Made by a program: the position numbers and the translations under genes. The notes beneath the pieces are model-generated. The model saw only the letters and a program-made list of their open reading frames with translations, made no database searches and was not told the DNA's origin. Source: Kosakonia arachidis (GTDB taxonomy: Bacteria; Pseudomonadota; Gammaproteobacteria; Enterobacterales; Enterobacteriaceae). From it: a stretch of DNA of 64,000 nt. The number at the start of each line of letters is the position of its first letter. Position 1 is the stretch's first letter. Shown piece by piece: positions 24,428 through 36,386 of this stretch. Location of the stretch: NCBI RefSeq assembly GCF_900116535.1, contig NZ_FPAU01000002.1:469301-533300 (forward strand), read 5' to 3'.

Positions 24428-25795
24428 TTACGCCACCAGTTGCTGCATGACCTTGATAAACGCAGATGTCACCTGCTCTTCCTGCGCGTGACGCCCCTCT
24501 TCAATCACCCAGCGTCCTCCGGTCATTACCCTTTTTATTGGGTTCGTCGCACAGGCGAAAATCCAGCGATTCAGACGTTCACGATCGCCTGAGGCGGCAA
24601 GAAAGGGATCACGGCTGTCAAGCAATAGCATATCCGCACGCTCGCCTGGTGCCAGTTGACCGACCGCTTGCCCCAGCGCGCGGCGCCCTCCCTGCAATGC
24701 ACCCTGATATAGCACATTGCCAATATAAGGTTCATCCGGCAGATGTAGCACGTTGCGCCGTCTTTTGTTTAGCCGTTGCCCATACTCAAACCAGCGCAAA
24801 TCCTCGCTGACGCTGACACTGATATGGCTGTCGGAGCCAATCCCCCAGCGTCCCTGCTGCGCAAGATAGTCCGGTCCCGGGAAAATACCATCACCAAGAT
24901 TGGCTTCGGTGGTCAGGCACAAGCCCGCCACTGCGCCGGAGGCAGCAATCTGTTGGGTTTCCTGCGGCGTAAGGTGCGTGGCGTGAATAAGACACCACTG
25001 CTCATCCACTGGCATATGCTGGTAAAGCCACTCCACCGGACGCAGACCGGACCAGGCTACGCAGTCATCGACCTCTTTTTGCTGCTCGGCAACATGAATA
25101 TGTACCGGCTGCGGTTGCGAACAGGCTTTGAGTACGATCTGCATCTGCTCCGGCGTAACGGCCCGTAGCGAATGGAAGCACAGCCCGGTACGCTGCATCG
25201 ACTCAGCGGCAAGCTGCGCAGTCAGCGTGTCATGCAGCGCCAGATAACCTTCCGTATCGTGAATAAAGCGGCTCTGCCCATTGGTCGCTGGCTGCCCGCC
25301 AAAACCAGAGAAGCTGTAAAGCACCGGCAACAATGTCAGGCCAATGCCCGCTGTTTTCGCCGCTTGCGAAATACGCAACGCCAGCTCGGCTGGCTGAGCA
25401 TAAGGTTTTCCGCCGCGATCGTGGTGCAAATAGTGAAACTCGGCCACAGAGGTATAACCGGCCTTCAGCATTTCGATGTACAGATAGCTGGCGATTATTT
25501 CCAACTGTTCGGGGGTAATTTTATCCACCAACCGGTACATTAAATCGCGCCATGTCCAGAAGCTGTCTGCCGGATCGGCAACCACTTCGGTCAGCCCGGC
25601 CATTGCGCGCTGAAATGCATGTGAATGCAAGTTTGGCATACCCGGCACCAGGAAACCCTCCAGGCGAATCGTGTTGTCGTCTGGCTGACTGCCGCTTTCC
25701 AGCGCGGTGATGATGCCCTGTGCAGAAACCGTAATACGGACATTCTCCGCCCAGCCCTGCGGCAACAATGCTTTTGCCGCGAAATATACCGTCAT
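24428..25795 (-). CDS. hutF: Formimidoylglutamate deiminase
   Basis: Amidohydrolase converting N-formimino-L-glutamate to N-formyl-L-glutamate and ammonia, the fourth step of the five-step histidine route. 455 aa from the ATG at 25795 (MTVYFAAKALLP), which has a GAGGGGC ribosome binding site; a slightly longer frame exists. Metal-site motifs of the family are present: NLHSHAFQRAM (His57, His59), HIHVAEQ, LIHATHL and GSDSHISV. It is transcribed divergently from hutCD across a 110-base region with HutC-type palindromes. This step is absent from the usual enterobacterial hut pathway, which uses formimidoylglutamase. Confidence 0.95.
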   Translation of the reverse strand: MTVYFAAKALLPQGWAENVRITVSAQGIITALESGSQPDDNTIRLEGFLVPGMPNLHSHAFQRAMAGLTEVVADPADSFWTWRDLMYRLVDKITPEQLEIIASYLYIEMLKAGYTSVAEFHYLHHDRGGKPYAQPAELALRISQAAKTAGIGLTLLPVLYSFSGFGGQPATNGQSRFIHDTEGYLALHDTLTAQLAAESMQRTGLCFHSLRAVTPEQMQIVLKACSQPQPVHIHVAEQQKEVDDCVAWSGLRPVEWLYQHMPVDEQWCLIHATHLTPQETQQIAASGAVAGLCLTTEANLGDGIFPGPDYLAQQGRWGIGSDSHISVSVSEDLRWFEYGQRLNKRRRNVLHLPDEPYIGNVLYQGALQGGRRALGQAVGQLAPGERADMLLLDSRDPFLAASGDRERLNRWIFACATNPIKRVMTGGRWVIEEGRHAQEEQVTSAFIKVMQQLVA

Positions 25796-25825
25796 ATCGC
25801 CCCTCACCATCTGCCGTCATTTAAG

Positions 25826-25837
25826 ATGTATATACAT
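25826..25837. promoter_or_regulatory. HutC-type operator at hutF/hutC
   Basis: ATGTATATACAT is a perfect palindrome 30 bases from the hutF start. It contains the same TGTATATACA core found upstream of hutU. Confidence 0.7.
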
Positions 25838-25905: not shown

Positions 25906-26667
25906 ATGGATCAAAGCGAAATTTTTAATGCAGCCGCAGGCGAGACGCATCTCGATCAGCCAGCCCCTTTCTATGAAAGGGTGAAGAGCATGATCAAAAC
26001 CAATATCCACAGCGGTGCCTGGCCCGTGAATTACCGCGTGCCGTCCGAAAGTGAACTGGTCAGTCAGTTTGGCTACAGCCGGATGACCATTAACCGTGCG
26101 CTGCGTGAACTGACCGCCGAAGGGCTGCTGGTGCGCATGCAGGGCGTTGGCACCTTTGTCGCCGAAGTGCGCGGGCAGTCGGCGCTGCTGGAAATCAATA
26201 ACATTGCCGATGAGATTGCTAGCCGCGGTCATCGTCATCACGCCAGAGTGCTGGAGCTGACTCAACTGCATGCGGATGCTCAGCAATCACTGGCCTTTAA
26301 TCTTCCGAAAGGCAGCCGCCTGTTCCATTCGCTAATTTGTCATTATGAAAACGGCGTTCCGGTGATGCTGGAAGACAGGCTGGTAAATGCACTGATTGTG
26401 CCAGACTACCTGCAACAGGATTTCACCCGCATCACCCCGAATGCTTATCTCTCTTCCATCGCGCCGATTGTCGAAGGCGAGCATATTATCGAAGCTGTGA
26501 ACGTGCCCCGCAGCGAGTGCGTTTATCTGGAAATAGATGAGCACACCCCGTGCCTGCAAGTGAACCGCCGCACCTGGACCGGTCGTCAGGACAAGAAAAT
26601 CGTCACCAGTGTGCGTCTGGTCTATCCGGGTTCGCGCTACCGCCTGGAAGGAAGCATGCGCAAATGA
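25906..26667 (+). CDS. hutC: GntR-family histidine-utilization repressor
   Basis: 253 aa HutC/FarR-type GntR repressor. The N-terminal winged helix (residues 20-90) reads PFYERVKSMIKTNIHSG and then YRVPSESELVSQFGYSRMTI; the C-terminal UTRA effector domain spans about residues 110-245. In characterised systems urocanate releases HutC from its operators. It starts at 25906 after GAGGAAAGGG, and its stop overlaps the hutD start (ATGA at 26664-26667). Candidate operators lie in its own promoter region and at both hutU and the divergent ABC/lyase operon, so it should control the whole cluster. Confidence 0.95.
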   Translation: MDQSEIFNAAAGETHLDQPAPFYERVKSMIKTNIHSGAWPVNYRVPSESELVSQFGYSRMTINRALRELTAEGLLVRMQGVGTFVAEVRGQSALLEINNIADEIASRGHRHHARVLELTQLHADAQQSLAFNLPKGSRLFHSLICHYENGVPVMLEDRLVNALIVPDYLQQDFTRITPNAYLSSIAPIVEGEHIIEAVNVPRSECVYLEIDEHTPCLQVNRRTWTGRQDKKIVTSVRLVYPGSRYRLEGSMRK

Positions 26668-27218
26668 GGCGGCTGCCTTATAGCGGCTACGCTGAGATGC
26701 GCTGGAAAAATGGCCAGGGCGTCACCCGCGAAGTGTGCCGTTTTCCCACCGATGAACAGTATGACTGGCGCATATCCATTGCAACGATCCGCGAAGACGG
26801 CGCGTTTTCACGTTTCGCCGGTTACCTGCGAAATATCAGTGTGCTGGAAGGCGAAGGCATGTTTCTGACGGTTGATGACCAGCGCAGCGCGTTAATTCCA
26901 CAGTTTCAGACGATGGATTTTAACGGCGACAGCGCGGTGTTTTGCGAGGTTGTTGGCGGGCCGTTACTCGATTTCAACGTGATTTATCGCCGTGAAACCA
27001 CCCAGGCAACAGTATGCTGGCTGCACGAGGGCGCATGGCAACATCAACAGGGAACGATGCTGCTGTTCAACGCCGGAGATTTGCTTGATGTTACCGTCGA
27101 CGATGAACGCCATACCCTGCAACATTACGACAGCTTGCTAATCGATAATCCGGCAACGGTTACCGTTCACGCAGGCAGCGACACGCTTTTCGCCTGCGTA
27201 ACACTGACATCCCGTTAA
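26664..27218 (+). CDS. hutD: HutD family protein
   Basis: 184 aa cupin-fold protein. The start used is the ATG at 26664, which overlaps the hutC stop by four bases and gives MRRLPYSGYAEMRWKNGQGV, the conserved HutD opening (WKNG-G-T-E). Work in Pseudomonas describes HutD as limiting hut expression under high urocanate, and crystal structures show a bicupin; its molecular role is still unclear. Translationally coupled to hutC, as in pseudomonads. Confidence 0.92.
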   Translation: MRRLPYSGYAEMRWKNGQGVTREVCRFPTDEQYDWRISIATIREDGAFSRFAGYLRNISVLEGEGMFLTVDDQRSALIPQFQTMDFNGDSAVFCEVVGGPLLDFNVIYRRETTQATVCWLHEGAWQHQQGTMLLFNAGDLLDVTVDDERHTLQHYDSLLIDNPATVTVHAGSDTLFACVTLTSR

Positions 27219-28854: not shown

Positions 28855-29736
28855 TTACTTACTCAGTTGGTGTTTAACCAGCCACTGGTGCGCCACATCA
28901 TCAATGCTGGCGAACTCAGCAAGCTGTTCGTTCATGGAAATCAGATCTTCGGTGGTGAGCTGTGCGGAGATTTTGTTCAGCGTGCTTTCAATGGTCGGGT
29001 TCAGCGTGCTGCTGGCGACAATCGGCACGATGTTCTGCGCGGCAAACAGGTGTTTTGGATCTCCCAGCGCAACCAGGTGATCTTTTTTGATCTCCGGCGT
29101 CGTCGAGGTCAGGTCAGCCACCTGAATCTGGTTGTTTTTCAGCGCCGTCAGCGTCAGCGGGCCAGCGACATCCAGCACTTTGAAGGTTTTGAAATTCAGA
29201 CCATAAACCTCACGCAGACCGGGAACGCCTTCATGACGGGTTTTCCACTCCGCCGGGCCACCAAGCACTAACTGCCCGGCAACAGGCTTCAGGTCGTCGA
29301 TGGTTTTCAGTTTGTATTTGTCGGCCGTTTTCTTCGTTACCGCCAGCACATCACTGTTCTGCGCCGTAGAAGTGTTCAGCATTTTCAGTTTTTCCGGCAG
29401 CTTAGCGGCCAGCGCCTTCGCCACGTCTTCCGAGCTGTGCGCTTCATTTTTCGCATCCAGGTAGCTCAGCAGCGCGCCGCTGTACTCCGGGATCACGGTG
29501 ATGGAACCATCCAGCAGCGCCGGGATATAGACTTCGCGGCTACCAATATTGAGTTTTTTCTCAACTGGAATGTTTTGCGCTTCCAGCGCTCCGGCGTAGA
29601 TGGTCGCCAGTAACTGGTTTTCCGGAAAATCCGCTGAACCAATAATCACTTTCTGACCGGCATCAGCAGCCCAGACAGAAGAAGCGACAGACAGCAGCGC
29701 GGCACTGAACAATGTTAAATAGCGTTTCTTAATCAT
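28855..29736 (-). CDS. ABC transporter substrate-binding protein, OpuAC/OsmX type
   Basis: 293 aa with a Sec signal peptide (LTLFSAALLSVASSVWA, cleavage near residue 24) and no lipobox Cys, hence a free periplasmic protein. The body shows the quaternary-amine-binding family pattern: KVIIGSADFPENQLLATIYA, then NIGSREVYIPALLDGSITVI with PEYSGALLSYLD. Such proteins hold trimethylammonium groups in an aromatic cage; I cannot identify the cage residues with certainty from sequence. It is the fourth gene of the operon, between the permeases and the MIO-less lyase. Confidence 0.9.
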   Translation of the reverse strand: MIKKRYLTLFSAALLSVASSVWAADAGQKVIIGSADFPENQLLATIYAGALEAQNIPVEKKLNIGSREVYIPALLDGSITVIPEYSGALLSYLDAKNEAHSSEDVAKALAAKLPEKLKMLNTSTAQNSDVLAVTKKTADKYKLKTIDDLKPVAGQLVLGGPAEWKTRHEGVPGLREVYGLNFKTFKVLDVAGPLTLTALKNNQIQVADLTSTTPEIKKDHLVALGDPKHLFAAQNIVPIVASSTLNPTIESTLNKISAQLTTEDLISMNEQLAEFASIDDVAHQWLVKHQLSK

Positions 29737-29769: not shown

Positions 29770-30450
29770 TCACTGGTTTTTGGTTTTCCGGGTGATCCCC
29801 GGTGAAACCACGACTTTCCCTGAAAGCGAAAAAAAGAGATCAATGATCAATGCCAGCAGCGCGACGAGGATGGCCCCGGCGGTCATCTGCGCAAAGTCGT
29901 TGGCGGCGCGCCCGTCGATAATCAATCGTCCCAGACCGCCGAGTGAAACGTATGCCGCGATAGTTGCGGTGGAGACAATTTGCAGTGCAGCGCTGCGGAT
30001 CCCAGAAAGGATCAGCGGCATTGCGCAGGGCAGCTCGACCTGCAACAGCACCTGAAGCGGCGTCAGGCCAATCCCTTTTGCCGCGTCATGCACGCTGGGA
30101 TCGACAGAACGGATACCCGCGTGTACGCCCAGCGCCACTGGCGGTAGCGCCAGCACAACCAGCACGATGATGCAGGGCAAAACAAAGGCCATATCCGATT
30201 CGAAATAGCCCGCCAGCAGGATCACCAGCAAAATAATCAGACCAAAAGAGGGCAACGAACGCAGGGCGTTGGTGGTGCCAATCAGCAGTGCCTCCCCTTT
30301 CCCGGTATGGCCGGTGTAGCAGCCGACCGGAAAAGCAATGGCAACGGCAATCGCCAGCGCCGCCGCGCTGTAACCGATATGCTGCAACAGCAGCGGCACA
30401 ATGCCGTCATCGCCGTACCAGTGGCTGAGATCGAAAAACCATTCACTCAT
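29770..30450 (-). CDS. ABC transporter permease, OpuC/OsmU type (second)
   Basis: 226 aa, five to six hydrophobic helices. The ATPase-contacting EAA-like loop reads DAAKGIGLTPLQVLLQVELP. Residues RSLPSFGLIILLVILLAGYF match the second conserved block of glycine-betaine-type permeases. It begins three bases after the preceding permease gene, so the two are coupled. The paired permeases indicate a heterodimeric membrane core, as in OpuC and OsmU. Confidence 0.9.
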   Translation of the reverse strand: MSEWFFDLSHWYGDDGIVPLLLQHIGYSAAALAIAVAIAFPVGCYTGHTGKGEALLIGTTNALRSLPSFGLIILLVILLAGYFESDMAFVLPCIIVLVVLALPPVALGVHAGIRSVDPSVHDAAKGIGLTPLQVLLQVELPCAMPLILSGIRSAALQIVSTATIAAYVSLGGLGRLIIDGRAANDFAQMTAGAILVALLALIIDLFFSLSGKVVVSPGITRKTKNQ

Positions 30451-30453
30451 CAG

Positions 30454-31098
30454 TTATCCCCTTTGCGGTTGCCAGCGGCTTAAAGAGCGAGTTATCGCGA
30501 CCACCAGGCAATCCAGAATGAAGGCCAGCGCAATACACAGCACAATCCCGGCGATAATCGGGGTGAGGAACTGAAGTTGAAAGCCCTGGGTAAACAGCGA
30601 ACCTAACTGCGGTGCGCCAATCAGCGCGGCAACCGACACAATGCTGACGTTAGAAACCACCGCCACGCGCAGCCCGGAACCGATCACCGGCACGGCAAGC
30701 GGCAGGTCGATCTGCAGAAATTGCTGTAGCGGTTTGTACCCCAGCGCGAAAGCAGACTGGCGGGTGTCTTCAGCAACGGAATCCAGCCCGTCGCACACGG
30801 TTCTTACCAGCAGCGCGAAGCTGTAAATGGTCAGCGCCACGACCACGTTGATCGGGTCGAGAATTTGCGTATTCAACAGCGGCGGCAGCAGCACGAACAG
30901 CGCCAGCGAAGGAATGGTATACAGCAGGCCGAACAGGTTGAGGATGATACCTTTCACTTTCGGCAGGTTGTTCACCGCCCAGCCCACCGGGATCGCCAGC
31001 AACAGACCAATCAGAATCGGCGTAATCGACAAATAGCAGTGCCAGAGCAGCAGGTTGAGGATCCTGTCGCCTTGCCCCCACAGCCAGTCAAATCTCAT
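30454..31098 (-). CDS. ABC transporter permease, OpuC/OsmU type (first)
   Basis: 214 aa, with hydrophobic helices at about residues 17-40, 50-75, 82-100, 135-160 and 180-205. The EAA-like loop is TRQSAFALGYKPLQQFLQID, and LLYTIPSLALFVLLPPLL is the signature shared with YehW/OpuCB-type permeases. The start overlaps the ATPase stop (ATGA at 31095-31098), showing translational coupling. Confidence 0.9.
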   Translation of the reverse strand: MRFDWLWGQGDRILNLLLWHCYLSITPILIGLLLAIPVGWAVNNLPKVKGIILNLFGLLYTIPSLALFVLLPPLLNTQILDPINVVVALTIYSFALLVRTVCDGLDSVAEDTRQSAFALGYKPLQQFLQIDLPLAVPVIGSGLRVAVVSNVSIVSVAALIGAPQLGSLFTQGFQLQFLTPIIAGIVLCIALAFILDCLVVAITRSLSRWQPQRG

Positions 31099-32192
31099 AG
31101 CGCCTCCTGGGTCAGCGACTTGCAGGCATCCAGCACATTTTCCAGCGCCAGTGATCCCAGCGGGGCATGCTGTTCATCAACCACCACGGCACGATGGCAG
31201 GGGGAGCTGAGCGCCGAATCCAGCAACTGGCGCAGTGTGCCGCCCTGCGGAGAAAACGTCGCGCCGAGATTCACGTTTTCCGGCGTAATCACCGTGACCT
31301 GCTGATGCGTGTCAAACCAGCCGCAGGCTTTGCCCTGCTGCGTCACCAGCAGCCAGCGTTGCGCGCTGATACCACGCGCCTGAGCAAGGGTTGCGCCCAT
31401 TTCGATGGCCGGTTCCGCCTGCAACGCCGTCAGCGGTGCAGAGGTGTGGAAACTGAGTTTGCGATAACCGCGGTCGCGGCCAATGAAATCGGCAACAAAT
31501 TCGCTCTGCGGCGCATTCAGTAATTCGCCCGGTGTTGCCAGTTGCGCCAGCTTGCCGCCAGGTTTCAGCACCGCAACGCAATCACCCAGTTTCATCGCTT
31601 CATCAATATCGTGGGTGACCATAATGATGGTCTTGCTGACCTCTTTCTGAATGCGCAGAAACTCTTCCTGCAACTGTTCACGCACGACGGGATCGACGGC
31701 GCTGAAGGGTTCGTCCATCAGCATAAATTCCGGGTCGGCGGCCAGCGCTCGCGCCACGCCGACGCGCTGCTGTTGCCCGCCGGAGAGCTGCCACGGGTAG
31801 CGTTTCGCCAGTTGCGGTGCCAGACCGACCACTTCCAGTAATTCCGCCGCTCTGGTTCTGGCTTTGCTTTTCGCCGCACCATTAAGGATGGCGGTAGTGG
31901 CGATGTTGTCGATGATGGTTTTATGCGGGAATAACCCGGCATTCTGGATCACGTAACCAATGCGCCGACGCAACTGCACCACATCCATCTGCGCGGTGGA
32001 TTCGCCATTGAGCAAAACCGTGCCGGAAGAGGGTTCGACCAGCCGGTTGATCATGCGTAATGAGGTGGTTTTGCCGCAGCCCGACGGCCCTACCAGCACA
32101 GTAATTTTGCCTCCTGGCGCGACAAGGTTCAGGCCATCGACCACGACGGTGCCGTCATCGTAATGCTTGGTCACATTGTTGAAAGTAATCAT
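31095..32192 (-). CDS. ABC transporter ATPase, quaternary-amine (OpuCA/OsmV) type
   Basis: 365 aa. Walker A GPSGCGKTT (about residues 36-44), signature LSGGQQQR, Walker B FMLMDEP, and the H-loop VTHDIDEAM are intact. The N-terminal 240 residues are the nucleotide-binding domain. The C-terminal 120 residues resemble the CBS pair that senses ionic strength in OpuA/OpuC, but the second half is divergent, so osmotic gating is uncertain. It is the first gene of the five-gene operon ending in the MIO-less lyase, read divergently from hutU under a sigma-54 promoter. Confidence 0.92.
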   Translation of the reverse strand: MITFNNVTKHYDDGTVVVDGLNLVAPGGKITVLVGPSGCGKTTSLRMINRLVEPSSGTVLLNGESTAQMDVVQLRRRIGYVIQNAGLFPHKTIIDNIATTAILNGAAKSKARTRAAELLEVVGLAPQLAKRYPWQLSGGQQQRVGVARALAADPEFMLMDEPFSAVDPVVREQLQEEFLRIQKEVSKTIIMVTHDIDEAMKLGDCVAVLKPGGKLAQLATPGELLNAPQSEFVADFIGRDRGYRKLSFHTSAPLTALQAEPAIEMGATLAQARGISAQRWLLVTQQGKACGWFDTHQQVTVITPENVNLGATFSPQGGTLRQLLDSALSSPCHRAVVVDEQHAPLGSLALENVLDACKSLTQEAL

Positions 32193-32260: not shown

Positions 32261-32274
32261 CTTGTATGTACAAC
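32261..32274. promoter_or_regulatory. HutC-type operator of the transporter/lyase operon
   Basis: CTTGTATGTACAAC matches the palindrome CTTGTATGTACAAG at 13 of 14 positions, a form I recall from the Pseudomonas hut operators. It covers the transcription start expected from the sigma-54 promoter at 32276-32291. Confidence 0.75.
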
Positions 32275-32275
32275 T

Positions 32276-32291
32276 TGCAAGCCATGTGCCA
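32276..32291 (-). promoter_or_regulatory. Sigma-54 promoter of the transporter/lyase operon
   Basis: On the minus strand TGGCACATGGCTTGCA is a full match to TGGCAC-N5-TTGCA, with GG and GC ten bases apart. The start site is expected near 32265, 73 bases before the ATPase start codon. Confidence 0.8.
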
Positions 32292-32575: not shown

Positions 32576-32590
32576 TGGCACCATATGTGC
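32576..32590 (+). promoter_or_regulatory. Sigma-54 promoter of hutUIG
   Basis: TGGCAC (32576-32581), five bases, then GTGC (32587-32590): GG and GC are ten bases apart and nine of ten consensus bases match. The start is expected near 32602, inside the HutC-type operator. Confidence 0.7.
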
Positions 32591-32596
32591 TTATCA

Positions 32597-32606
32597 TGTA
32601 TATACA
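32597..32606. promoter_or_regulatory. HutC-type operator of hutU
   Basis: TGTATATACA is a perfect palindrome identical to the core upstream of hutF/hutC. It lies over the start site predicted for the sigma-54 promoter. Confidence 0.75.
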
Positions 32607-32658: not shown

Positions 32659-34335
32659 ATGAGTAGTGAATTTTCCCGTTATCGTGATGTTGAGATCAGG
32701 GCGCCGCGCGGCACGACATTGACTGCGAAAAGCTGGCTGACCGAAGCGCCGCTGCGCATGCTGATGAATAATCTTGATCCCGAAGTCGCGGAAAACCCGA
32801 AAGAGCTGGTGGTTTACGGCGGGATTGGTCGGGCAGCACGTAACTGGGAGTGCTTTGACAAAATGGTGGAAGCGCTGAAGCAGCTTAACGATGACGAAAC
32901 GCTGCTGGTGCAATCCGGTAAACCGGTCGGCGTGTTTAAAACCCACAGCAATGCGCCGCGCGTACTGATCGCCAACTCCAACCTGGTTCCCCATTGGGCA
33001 AACTGGGAGCACTTTAACGAACTGGACGCCAAAGGGCTGGCGATGTACGGCCAGATGACCGCAGGCTCCTGGATCTATATTGGCAGCCAGGGGATCGTTC
33101 AGGGCACGTATGAAACTTTCGTCGAAGCAGGTCGCCAGCACTATGACGGTTCGCTGGTCGGCCGCTGGGTGCTGACCGCTGGTCTGGGTGGTATGGGCGG
33201 TGCACAACCACTGGCTGCAACGCTGGCAGGTGCCTGCTCGCTGAACATTGAATGTCAGCAATCCCGCATCGACTTCCGCCTGCGTACCGGTTATGTGGAT
33301 GAGCAGGCAACGGATCTGGACGATGCCCTGGCGCGTATTGAACGCTATACCCGCGAAGGTAAAGCTATCTCTGTTGCGCTGCACGGTAATGCGGCGGAAG
33401 TCTTACCGGAAATGGTTAAACGCGGTGTCCATCCGGATATTGTGACCGATCAAACCAGCGCACACGATCCGCTGAACGGCTATCTGCCGATGGGCTGGCA
33501 GTGGGAAGACTATCGCGAACGCGCAAAAACGGAGCCAGCGGTGGTGATTCAGGCGGCAAAAGCCTCAATGGCTGAGCACGTTAAAGCGATGCTCGCCTTC
33601 CAGCAGCAAGGCATTCCAACCTTCGATTACGGCAACAATATTCGCCAGATGGCGAAAGAGATGGGCGTCAGCAACGCCTTCGATTTCCCAGGTTTTGTGC
33701 CCGCCTATATTCGCCCTCTGTTCTGCCGCGGTATTGGGCCGTTCCGTTGGGCCGCGCTCTCCGGCGATCCGGAGGATATCTATCGCACCGATGAAAAGGT
33801 GAAAGAGTTGATCGCGGATGATGCACATCTGCACCGCTGGCTGGATATGGCGAAAGAGCGCATCAGTTTCCAGGGCCTGCCAGCACGTATTTGCTGGGTT
33901 GGTCTGGGGCAGCGCGCGCGTCTGGGGCTGGCGTTTAACGAAATGGTGCGTAGCGGCGAAGTCTCGGCGCCGATTGTCATTGGCCGCGATCACCTGGACT
34001 CCGGCTCTGTTGCCAGCCCGAACCGCGAAACCGAAGCGATGAAAGATGGCTCCGATGCGGTTTCCGACTGGCCACTGCTGAACGCCTTACTTAATACCGC
34101 CAGCGGCGCAACCTGGGTTTCCCTGCACCACGGCGGCGGCGTCGGCATGGGATTCTCACAGCATTCGGGGATGGTTATCGTCTGCGATGGCACGGATGAA
34201 GCGGCAGAACGTATCGCCCGCGTACTGCATAACGATCCGGCAACGGGCGTGATGCGCCATGCCGATGCAGGTTATGATTCCGCCGTCGCCTGTGCCAAAG
34301 AGCACGACCTTAACCTGCCGATGATTGCAAAGTAA
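32659..34335 (+). CDS. hutU: Urocanate hydratase
   Basis: NAD+-dependent hydration of urocanate to 4-imidazolone-5-propionate. 558 aa from the ATG at 32659 ([20 protein letters not shown]), preceded by AAAGAAGG; the frame extends 31 codons further upstream but these are not urocanase-like and overlap the operator. The family core is canonical: [28 protein letters not shown], the active-site Cys region [12 protein letters not shown], and [18 protein letters not shown]. Nothing suggests a shift in substrate to thiourocanate. It is first of the hutU-hutI-hutG operon. Confidence 0.97.
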
Positions 34336-34384: not shown

Positions 34385-35593
34385 ATGCGCATTTTATGGC
34401 GTCACTGCCAAATTGCCACCATGGAAGCGGGCAAATACAACCTGATCCCACACGCGGCGATGATCACCGATGGCCCGCGCATTGTATGGCTGGGCGAAGC
34501 GGGAACGCAATCGGACGACGCGATTGATCGCGAAGTGGATTTGCACGGACGGCTGGTTACGCCTGGGCTGATTGATTGCCATACCCATAGCGTATTTGGC
34601 GGCGATCGCAGCCAGGAGTTTGAAATGCGGCTCAGCGGCGAGAGTTACGCGGAGATCGCAGCAGCAGGCGGAGGCATTATCAGTACCGTGAATGCTACCC
34701 GTAACGCCAGCCAGCAACAATTGCTGGAAAGCGCCCGCAAGCGCATTCACGCGCTGCGCAAAGACGGCGTAACCACACTTGAGATCAAATCCGGCTACGG
34801 CCTCAGCTTTGCCGATGAAGGCAAAATGTTGCAGGTGATCCGTGCGCTTGGCGCAGAAATGCCGCTCACTATCTTCAGCACTTGCCTTGCGGCGCACGCG
34901 TTGCCGGGCGAGTATCAGGGGCGTGCCGACGAGTACATTGACGAAATTTGCCAACGCTGGCTGCCTGCCTGGCACGCACAAGGGCTGGTCGATGCGGTCG
35001 ATGCCTTTTGTGAACATCTGGCCTTTTCACCGCAACAAGTGGAGCGGGTTTTCCACAAAGCGCAGCAGCTTGGCTTACCGGTAAAACTGCATGCCGAACA
35101 GCTTTCACTGCTGCACGGAGCAGGTCTGGCCGCCCGCTACAATGCGCTTTCCGCCGATCACCTGGAGTATTTGTGTGAAGAGGATATCGCGCTGATGGCA
35201 CAGCACAGCACCACTGCTGTTCTGCTGCCGGGTGCCTTTTACTTTTTACGCGAGAGCCAGCAGCCCCCCGTAGCGCTGCTACGTCAGCACCAGGTGCCGA
35301 TGGCCATTTCCAGCGATCTGAACCCGGGTACATCACCGGTATTGTCTCTGCGCCTGATGATGAATATGGCCTGCACGTTGTTCCGCCTGACGCCTGAAGA
35401 AGCGCTGGCGGGAGTAACCTGTCATGCCGCCCGGGCGTTAGGTATCAGCGATCGCTGCGGGACGCTACAGGCGGGTAAAGAGGCCAGTTTTGTCGCGTGG
35501 GATATTACTCATCCGGCGGAACTCAGCTACTGGCTGGGTGGAACGCTGTCAAAACAGGTTATTTATCAGGGGGAGGAAGTGTGGCATGACTAA
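34385..35593 (+). CDS. hutI: Imidazolonepropionase
   Basis: Metal-dependent amidohydrolase converting 4-imidazolone-5-propionate to N-formimino-L-glutamate. 402 aa from the ATG at 34385 ([18 protein letters not shown]), with GGGAG upstream. Motifs: [13 protein letters not shown] (His66 and His68 as metal ligands), [15 protein letters not shown], and [10 protein letters not shown] with the catalytic Asp. Its last eight bases overlap the start of hutG. Confidence 0.97.
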
Positions 35594-36386
35594 CGGATTT
35601 GAATTACATCAGGGGCGGCTGCCGCTGCTGGTCAGCATGCCCCATCCCGGCACGCAACTGACGCCGGAGATCGCCCGCGCCCTCACTGCTCGGGCGCAGC
35701 GCCTGGAGGATACGGACTGGCATATTCCGCTACTGTATCAGCCGATCCGCGAGCTTGGCGCCAGCGTGCTGAGCGCCAGATATTCTCGCTATGTCGTGGA
35801 TTTAAACCGCCCGGCGGATGACAAACCGCTATACAGCACGGCGACTACCGGCCTGTTCCCGGGGACTTTTTTTGACGGCGAGCCACTGTTCGAAGCGGGC
35901 AAAGCGCCGGATGACACCACGAAAGCCACCATTTTGCACAACATATGGCAGCCTTATCACCAGGCGCTGGCGCAGGAGCTGGCGCGTTTGCGCGACACTT
36001 TCGGCTACGTGTTGCTGTGGGATGCGCACTCCATCAAATCGGTGGTTCCGCGTTTGTTTGAAGGCAAACTGCCGGACCTGAATTTCGGCACTGCCGATGG
36101 GGCAAGCTGCGCGCCGGAGCTGAGCCGCGCATTGCTGGACTGCTGCGACGCGTTTTCGCACTACAGCAAAGTGCTCAACGGCCGCTTTAAAGGCGGGTAT
36201 ATCACCCGCCATTACGGCGCACCGCAACAGAATATCCATGCGGTACAACTGGAAGTGGCGCAGTGCTGCTACATGGATGAGATGAGCTTTGCGTTCAGCG
36301 AAGAGAAGAGTGAACACTTTCGCGCACTGCTGAGCGCCCTGATAAACACGGCGCTTGCGTGGTGTGACCAAAACCTGAGCCGCTAA
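35586..36386 (+). CDS. hutG: N-formylglutamate deformylase
   Basis: Zinc-dependent hydrolysis of N-formyl-L-glutamate to glutamate and formate, the final step of the five-step pathway. 266 aa from the ATG at 35586, overlapping hutI. It belongs to the N-formylglutamate amidohydrolase family ([64 protein letters not shown]), not to the arginase-like formimidoylglutamase also called HutG in Klebsiella and Salmonella. Together with hutF this fixes the pathway type. Confidence 0.95.

Follow-up and report, generated by a model that had tools for sequence, protein, structure and literature searches.

A hut locus of Kosakonia arachidis contains an ABC importer and a histidine ammonia-lyase (HAL) homologue, here termed HALx, that together would provide an alternative entry to the hut pathway. 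The periplasmic receptor of this importer, P0001 (positions 28855-29736, minus strand, of the window, i.e. the whole 64 kb stretch of DNA analyzed; 293 residues), probably binds a modified histidine whose ring is unsubstituted, and not histidine, ergothioneine or an osmolyte. As a first and tentative candidate we propose hercynine (histidine betaine), for which the leaving group would be trimethylamine. In the proposed route, P0001 would capture a derivative of histidine in which the alpha-nitrogen can already depart as a leaving group, HALx would strip that nitrogen without MIO to give urocanate, urocanate would lift HutC off its operators at the two divergent operons, and HutU, HutI, HutF and HutG would degrade it to glutamate and formate. 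The proposal builds on gene order, a deletion of the MIO-forming tripeptide, retained active-site residues, operator sequences and co-occurrence with urocanase; from these we infer that HALx is active, that its product is urocanate and what its substrate would be.

Organization and predicted control of the locus

The gene for P0001 is the last of a four-gene ABC set on the minus strand, behind a ProV/OpuC-type ATPase (31095-32192) and two permeases of the BPD_transp_1 type (30454-31098 and 29770-30450), and the gene for HALx (P0002; 27290-28840, minus strand) follows 14 bases downstream. On the far side of the gap at 32.2-32.6 kb, opposite the transporter, lie hutU (32659-34335), hutI (imidazolonepropionase; 34385-35593) and hutG (N-formylglutamate deformylase; 35580-36386), all on the plus strand and the latter two with provisional starts. 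Past HALx are hutD (26664-27218) and the repressor gene hutC (25906-26667), both on the plus strand, and hutF (formimidoylglutamate deiminase; 24428-25810) on the minus strand. One relative, G009, carries a locus 96% identical to that of the window (L011). A search for a second hutU in the window's genome returned a single urocanase match, the gene within the window. Canonical hutH, with its MIO motif, is found on another contig (G000:C11:227016-228398; L046) adjoining an aminotransferase-like gene; at the equivalent position of sister genome G001 (L048) are hutI, hutC, hutU and hutH, and the lone canonical hutH of the window's genome is likely a relic. Sister genome G007 has only a 26-residue HALx-like piece near hutU (G007:C38:14907-14984; E = 8e-4), which looks as if the HALx module had been lost there.

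Three copies of TGTA-N2-TACA, the HutC target given in excerpts of PMC12977541, occur in the 64 kb, distributed as one per hut gap; shuffled sequences averaged 0.36, and none of 100 shuffles reached three. The predicted operators lie at 32263-32272 (minus strand), at 32597-32606 before hutU and at 25827-25836 in the hutF/hutC gap (both plus strand). The first of them is downstream of a predicted sigma-54-type -24/-12 site, TGGCACN5TTGC (32277-32291, minus strand), directed toward the transporter-HALx operon, a single such site being within chance expectation (at least one in 32 of 100 shuffles). A sigma-54-like site, TGGCACN5GTGC, also stands before hutU (32576-32590, plus strand), and the same excerpts describe a HutC-protected region overlapping the sigma-54 site at Pseudomonas aeruginosa hutU. 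We extended this comparison to the 37 loci of the window's type (clade A, below) with the ATPase on the plus strand, drawn from the best 80 of at least 583 matches. In the roughly 300 bases that precede the ATPase, the palindrome was present in 23 of these loci and a loosely matched sigma-54 site in 19, and 17 had both, 19-21 bases apart, in taxa including Kosakonia, Enterobacter, Cedecea, Klebsiella indica, Pectobacterium, Tatumella, Rahnella, Rouxiella and Serratia. Some palindrome-bearing loci have no hutU or hutI within the fetched stretch; the palindromes of L056 and L065 lie a long way upstream and could be those of hutU. The initial annotation had placed P0001 inside a sigma-54/HutC-controlled operon, tied to catabolism and with its ligand deciding the pathway substrate; the palindrome count and the recurring pair of sites support the former at the level of sequence, and we agree with the latter.

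The same annotation described the C-terminus of the ATPase as degenerate and CBS-like; in sequence searches it showed no recognizable CBS domain. No CBS match was obtained for residues 238-365 even at an E-value of 10, the sole row being DUF4947 (E = 0.076); the ProV-family model aligns through residue 356, and the C-terminal CBS pair of OpuC-type ATPases is not recognizable.

HAL homologues lacking the MIO tripeptide

The Ala-Ser-Gly triplet that forms MIO is removed from HALx by an exact three-residue deletion. Of 31 HAL-family loci read (the 30 matches with fetched loci plus L001, a part of that search), 20 possess the triplet and 11 are missing it, namely HALx and ten relatives, and these 11 are the loci closest to P0002, the window's own included. 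HALx also carries the changes N195S, Y280L and F329G (P. putida numbering) and keeps Y53, S82, H83, Q277, R283 and E414, of which Y53, S82, H83, R283 and E414 are retained throughout the MIO-less rows; Y53, H83, R283 and E414 are among the residues with assigned roles in HALs. A shifted MIO was considered and rejected, because the upstream "ASG" of HALx is not conserved, reading PAGG or PAKG in relatives. Gene decay was likewise rejected for the window, where the gene is intact, with close conservation extending across phyla. One relative, at locus L056 of G233, is broken into many pieces. The AlphaFold2 model of HALx (mean pLDDT 90.2) matches HALs, mutants included, with Z scores of 43.9-46.8, and ergothionase 6s7j with a Z score of 43.1 (rmsd 2.4; 493 aligned residues). 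By sequence, HALx scored under the NCBIfam hutH cut-off (503.3 versus 539.15) and that of PRK09367 (514.8 versus 524).

Phylogenetic reconstruction placed the MIO-less HALs in one group (SH-aLRT 96), with support of 100 for clade A, 100 for clade B, and 96 for B plus C. This was a quick tree with SH-aLRT support only, a weak root (57), long branches for L121_X, L029 and L178, and the MIO columns left in; its 53 rows comprise 35 from a table of 79 (in which one row, L083_1, is a different lyase) and 18 others. Clade B includes the HutXWV-linked Pseudomonas proteins, which as judged from gene order correspond to HutH1, and clade C is that of Firmicutes. Among Pseudomonas hut clusters (L101-L132) the gene in the HutH1 position is MIO-less and stands behind HutXWV; in Pantoea counterparts of the same set, the MIO-less gene is behind a polar amino acid ABC set. 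A MIO-less HAL relative of another type, which keeps Y280 and F329 and forms a long branch, was seen at L121:7633-9225.

To describe gene neighborhoods we used 80 loci, the best of at least 583 confirmed matches, retrieved through a pair of peptide patterns, of which one was GSVGYL-based; MIO loss among them is thus largely a product of selection, and the independent part of this evidence lies in the neighbors and linked residues. Among the 42 clade-A loci of this best 80, the binding protein and ATPase accompany the lyase in 38, and within the fetched stretch hutU was found in 23 and a HutC-like gene in 28. At least one of the CaiB-, HAD- and ECH-like genes occurs in 28 of the 42 (26, 25 and 22 for each), in that order behind HALx in L039 and L042. 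Such genes, for CoA-transferase-, HAD- and enoyl-CoA hydratase-like proteins, lie behind HALx in sister genomes (L039:9652-12532) and are absent from the window; L054 retains an ECH-like piece. Among the 38 clade-B and -C loci of the best 80 (one of which, L118, is not a close member), the binding protein is of the HutX type in 18, the polar-amino-acid type in 10 and the OpuC type in three, and hutU is present in 23.

Urocanase was found in all 36 clade-A genomes checked, comprising 9 of 9 relatives (G000, G003, G004, G005, G006, G008, G009, G012 and G018), 24 of 24 and 3 of 3 others, against a background of 23 of 49 other relatives and 23 of 120 Burkholderiales. Within the relatives this co-occurrence is weak, since eight of the nine carriers belong to one genus, Kosakonia, in which all 15 genomes have hutU. 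In five of 36 genomes searched for PF00221 (G064, the MAG G078, G238, G241 and G242), HALx was the only match.

The binding pocket of P0001

P0001 starts with a signal-peptide-like sequence and matches OpuAC/PF04069 with 164.2 bits against a gathering cut-off of 21.2 (E = 5.8e-48), in keeping with the periplasmic OpuAC-type protein first annotated here. On the OsmF equivalog model NF049931 it scored 83.9 bits against a cut-off of 400 and by that rule is not an OsmF. The nearest solved sequences are the solute-binding domains of the ergothioneine-binding EgtU (7txk, 7txl and 9egh; E = 8.9e-28 to 2.4e-27). The predicted fold of P0001 (pLDDT 95.3) is equally close to EgtU (Z = 31.9-32.3), to OpuCC (3ppn; Z = 32.2) and to others.

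Excerpts of PMC9732360 assign the trimethylammonium group bound by EgtU to F293, Y341, Y419, Y443 and N339, its carboxylate to K242, T296 and R379, and its imidazole to E375 and T275, and state that G244 and F293 are kept in all EgtU. Our cage table rests on sequence alignment. In this alignment, F293/Y341/Y419/Y443 become Y85/D129/T210/Q234 in P0001 and N339 is kept as N127, K242/T296/R379 become A35, an alanine and R167, and E375/T275 become E163/R67. Equivalents of E375 and R379 are therefore retained, G244 and F293 are replaced by F and Y, and with Y, D, T and Q at its positions the aromatic quaternary-amine cage appears to be dismantled. The initial annotation had proposed a cage comparison, and had held that a cage identical to that of glycine-betaine binders, together with micromolar affinity for glycine betaine only, would overturn its reading; by alignment, P0001 has neither the EgtU nor the OsmF/ProX type of cage, and differs from the glycine-betaine binders.

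These replacements characterize the clade. Among 38 clade-A binding proteins from the best 80 of at least 583 matches, Y341 is replaced by D in 36, Y443 by Q in 37 and K242 by A in all 38; the position of D129 is V in the remaining two, and E163, W164, R167, R67, Y85 and F37 are invariant. Conversely, Firmicutes binding proteins encoded beside MIO-less HALs and hutU (L095, L097 and L098) keep K, T, Y, N, Y, E, R, F and Y, i.e. the betaine cage plus E375/T275, and the OsmF-like paralogue of the window's genome (L003) keeps K, T, Y, N, W, E, R, Y and Y. The 18 HutX-type proteins beside clade-B HALs in the same best 80 have conserved Trp and Tyr, their cage positions being presumably those of ChoX. 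Judging from these alignments, the betaine cage is lost only in the window's clade among the proteins compared. An osmoprotectant importer that adjoins hut genes by chance would agree with the PF04069 domain, the ProV-type ATPase and the fold tie with OpuCC, and relatives in Pectobacterium betavasculorum are filed as osmolyte transporters in excerpts of PMC10991766; we nevertheless regard it as extremely improbable, given the importer's own predicted HutC operator and sigma-54-type site, the spacing of 14 bases between P0001 and HALx, and the absence from P0001 of a cage kept by the OsmF-like paralogue.

Two related Pantoea clade-A loci (L086:8-11164 and L089:98-11167) contain a distant HutU and, by labels assigned by eye, molybdopterin oxidoreductase-like, hydantoinase-like and N-carbamoylase-like genes. 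Their binding proteins have V129 and C208, which vary together with HALx changes at 380-386 (among 12 and 8 such columns), and these loci are possibly an ergothioneine-type variant with matching changes in both proteins. They also raise the idea that D129 and D208 face the imidazole ring, a weak one since the two loci are related and so represent one event.

Candidate ligands and related systems

The loss of MIO from HALx constrains the substrate more than the pocket of P0001 does. In the absence of MIO, a lyase would be expected to require a leaving group better than ammonia; ergothionase, said to be without MIO in excerpts of PMC13405746, provides the known case of a trimethylamine leaving group. 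In P. betavasculorum NCPPB 2795 (L063 in G238), no family member other than HALx was found, and the hut set next to it is complete. Excerpts of PMC10991766 report hut genes with "osmolyte" ABC transporters in this and three other strains and list L-histidine among the carbon sources that the strains of this species studied there failed to use, with stated exceptions for other compounds (e.g. propionic acid in the type strain). This phenotype fits a substrate other than histidine, short of proof, although a missing histidine carrier could produce it instead. Together with the loss of MIO, it points to a histidine derivative as the probable substrate.

Import of L-histidine, with HALx acting as a cofactor-independent histidine ammonia-lyase, would agree with the full hut set in the cluster, the retained imidazole residues, acidic residues in the former cage that could hold free ammonium, and the five genomes with HALx as their only family match. 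It would have to be reconciled with the loss of MIO and the changes at the surrounding N195, Y280 and F329, with the canonical hutH elsewhere in the window's genome, and with P. betavasculorum as a listed non-user (excerpts of PMC10991766). Further, Pseudomonas HutH1, MIO-less as inferred from gene order, is reported in the excerpts available to be dispensable for growth on histidine. We therefore consider histidine itself an improbable ligand.

The imidazole residues of HALx, the HutC operators, HutI and HutF suggest a C2-unsubstituted histidine skeleton and urocanate as the product. HutI and HutF, which act on an unsubstituted C2, accordingly speak against ergothioneine or its sulfonate as ligand and HALx as an ergothionase, as do the closer match of HALx to wild-type HALs by sequence (and slightly by fold), the F and Y of P0001 at EgtU G244 and F293, and the window's hut cluster, in which no hydantoin-type genes were found. 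EgtU as nearest solved sequence, the MIO-less state of ergothionase (excerpts of PMC13405746), the Z score of 43.1 for HALx against 6s7j, and the hydantoinase-like and N-carbamoylase-like genes (labels by eye) of the two Pantoea loci favor ergothioneine, to which we give only a slim chance. An ergothionase proxy was sought in 12 fetched Burkholderiales stretches and none was recognized, the lyases being nine with the triplet and three of clade B; a search for thiourocanate hydratases that started from a HutU-like sequence yielded only 44-51% matches.

Hercynine occurs in fungi and some bacteria, and is the simplest candidate for a modified histidine whose ring is unsubstituted. Streptococcus pneumoniae EgtU binds it weakly, at about 600 per molar, so that likeness to EgtU alone would not predict it. 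Hercynine leaves the lost cage and the CaiB/HAD/ECH-like genes unexplained: the former argues against a trimethylammonium group held in the usual place, and the latter would have nothing to do in converting hercynine to urocanate. Neither a lyase acting on hercynine nor a hut cluster that degrades it was found in the literature searched, which mostly excluded subscription papers; this is no proof of absence. Lost cage and accessory genes together leave room for another N-alpha conjugate of histidine, a sub-case of the modified-histidine reading without hercynine, in which CaiB/HAD/ECH-like enzymes would degrade the carboxylate of the released part and strains that lost these genes would waste it. 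This is suggested by the conserved charged residues D129, R67 and D208 in the dismantled cage, by the accessory genes in 28 of 42 clade-A loci (of the best 80 of at least 583; in order in L039 and L042), and by residues 195 (S or G) and 329 (G) of HALx, which suggest a roomier site than that of clades B and C. However, a secondary amine leaves poorly when there is no MIO, and the sequence of the HAD comes closest to that of a pyridine-carboxylate dehydrogenase, which makes its role in CoA chemistry unsure; to our knowledge, no natural histidine N-alpha conjugate with a carboxylate-bearing released part can be named. We consider such a conjugate unlikely, if less so than histidine.

More broadly, MIO-less HALs might be widespread lyases of histidine betaine or other N-alpha-substituted histidines with importers of their own, the window's clade having re-cut an OpuC pocket for a new ligand, a generalization to which we give somewhat less than even weight. 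Histidine uptake by the clade-B-associated HutXWV, in which a review takes it to have a part in the excerpt available, and the polar-amino-acid-type binding proteins at 10 of 38 clade-B and -C loci argue against the modified-histidine reading. If true, the generalization would explain Pseudomonas HutH1, for which it offers a testable role, the hut set of histidine-negative P. betavasculorum, and the additional "hut" cluster carried by Klebsiella plasmids, all three currently filed as histidine utilization.

The plasmid clusters were surveyed with tblastn (E <= 1e-60) across 72,556 plasmid records, of which 191 had P0001-like and 717 P0002-like matches, the latter including distant HALs. When the query was the lyase gene from Klebsiella, 203 of the 72,556 records matched at 90% identity or more (191 from Klebsiella; 163 covering at least 80% of the query), while megablast against E. 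coli genomes gave no match. Plasmid pINF019_1 has a complete cluster, with hut names and an "ABC transporter" annotation, that combines the MIO deletion, three HutC palindromes and a sigma-54-type site. The second hut-like cluster on a clinical Klebsiella plasmid (L187; NZ_CP083797.1 138517-162043) is complete and includes MIO-less HALx and this importer; its lyase gene is the one that matches the 203 records. Annotations in the 40 plasmid matches listed call the enzyme an (ammonia-)lyase of histidine or of aromatic amino acids, and hut names are attached to the clusters inspected; if our reading is true, these clusters would degrade a different compound, releasing an amine instead of ammonia.

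Compared with known systems, HALx has in common with HutH the fold and Y53, H83, R283 and E414, and differs in the missing triplet, the three substitutions and a score below the curated hutH cut-off. A HAL fold without MIO, as described for Treponema denticola ergothionase (6s7j; excerpts of PMC13405746), is found in HALx, although in the comparison made, of bit score and fold, ergothionase is the more distant by sequence (193.5 bits versus 293.7-345.1 for wild-type HALs). Pseudomonas HutH1 with HutXWV (L101 and others) resembles the window in placing a MIO-less HAL beside an ABC importer inside hut, but belongs to clade B, is linked to a different transporter family, and keeps N195 with F329P. 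Finally, P0001 shares its Pfam family and fold with OsmF/YehZ (L003; 4wep) without the Y, N, W, Y and Y of the L003 cage, and would, if our reading holds, be an example of a betaine pocket rebuilt.
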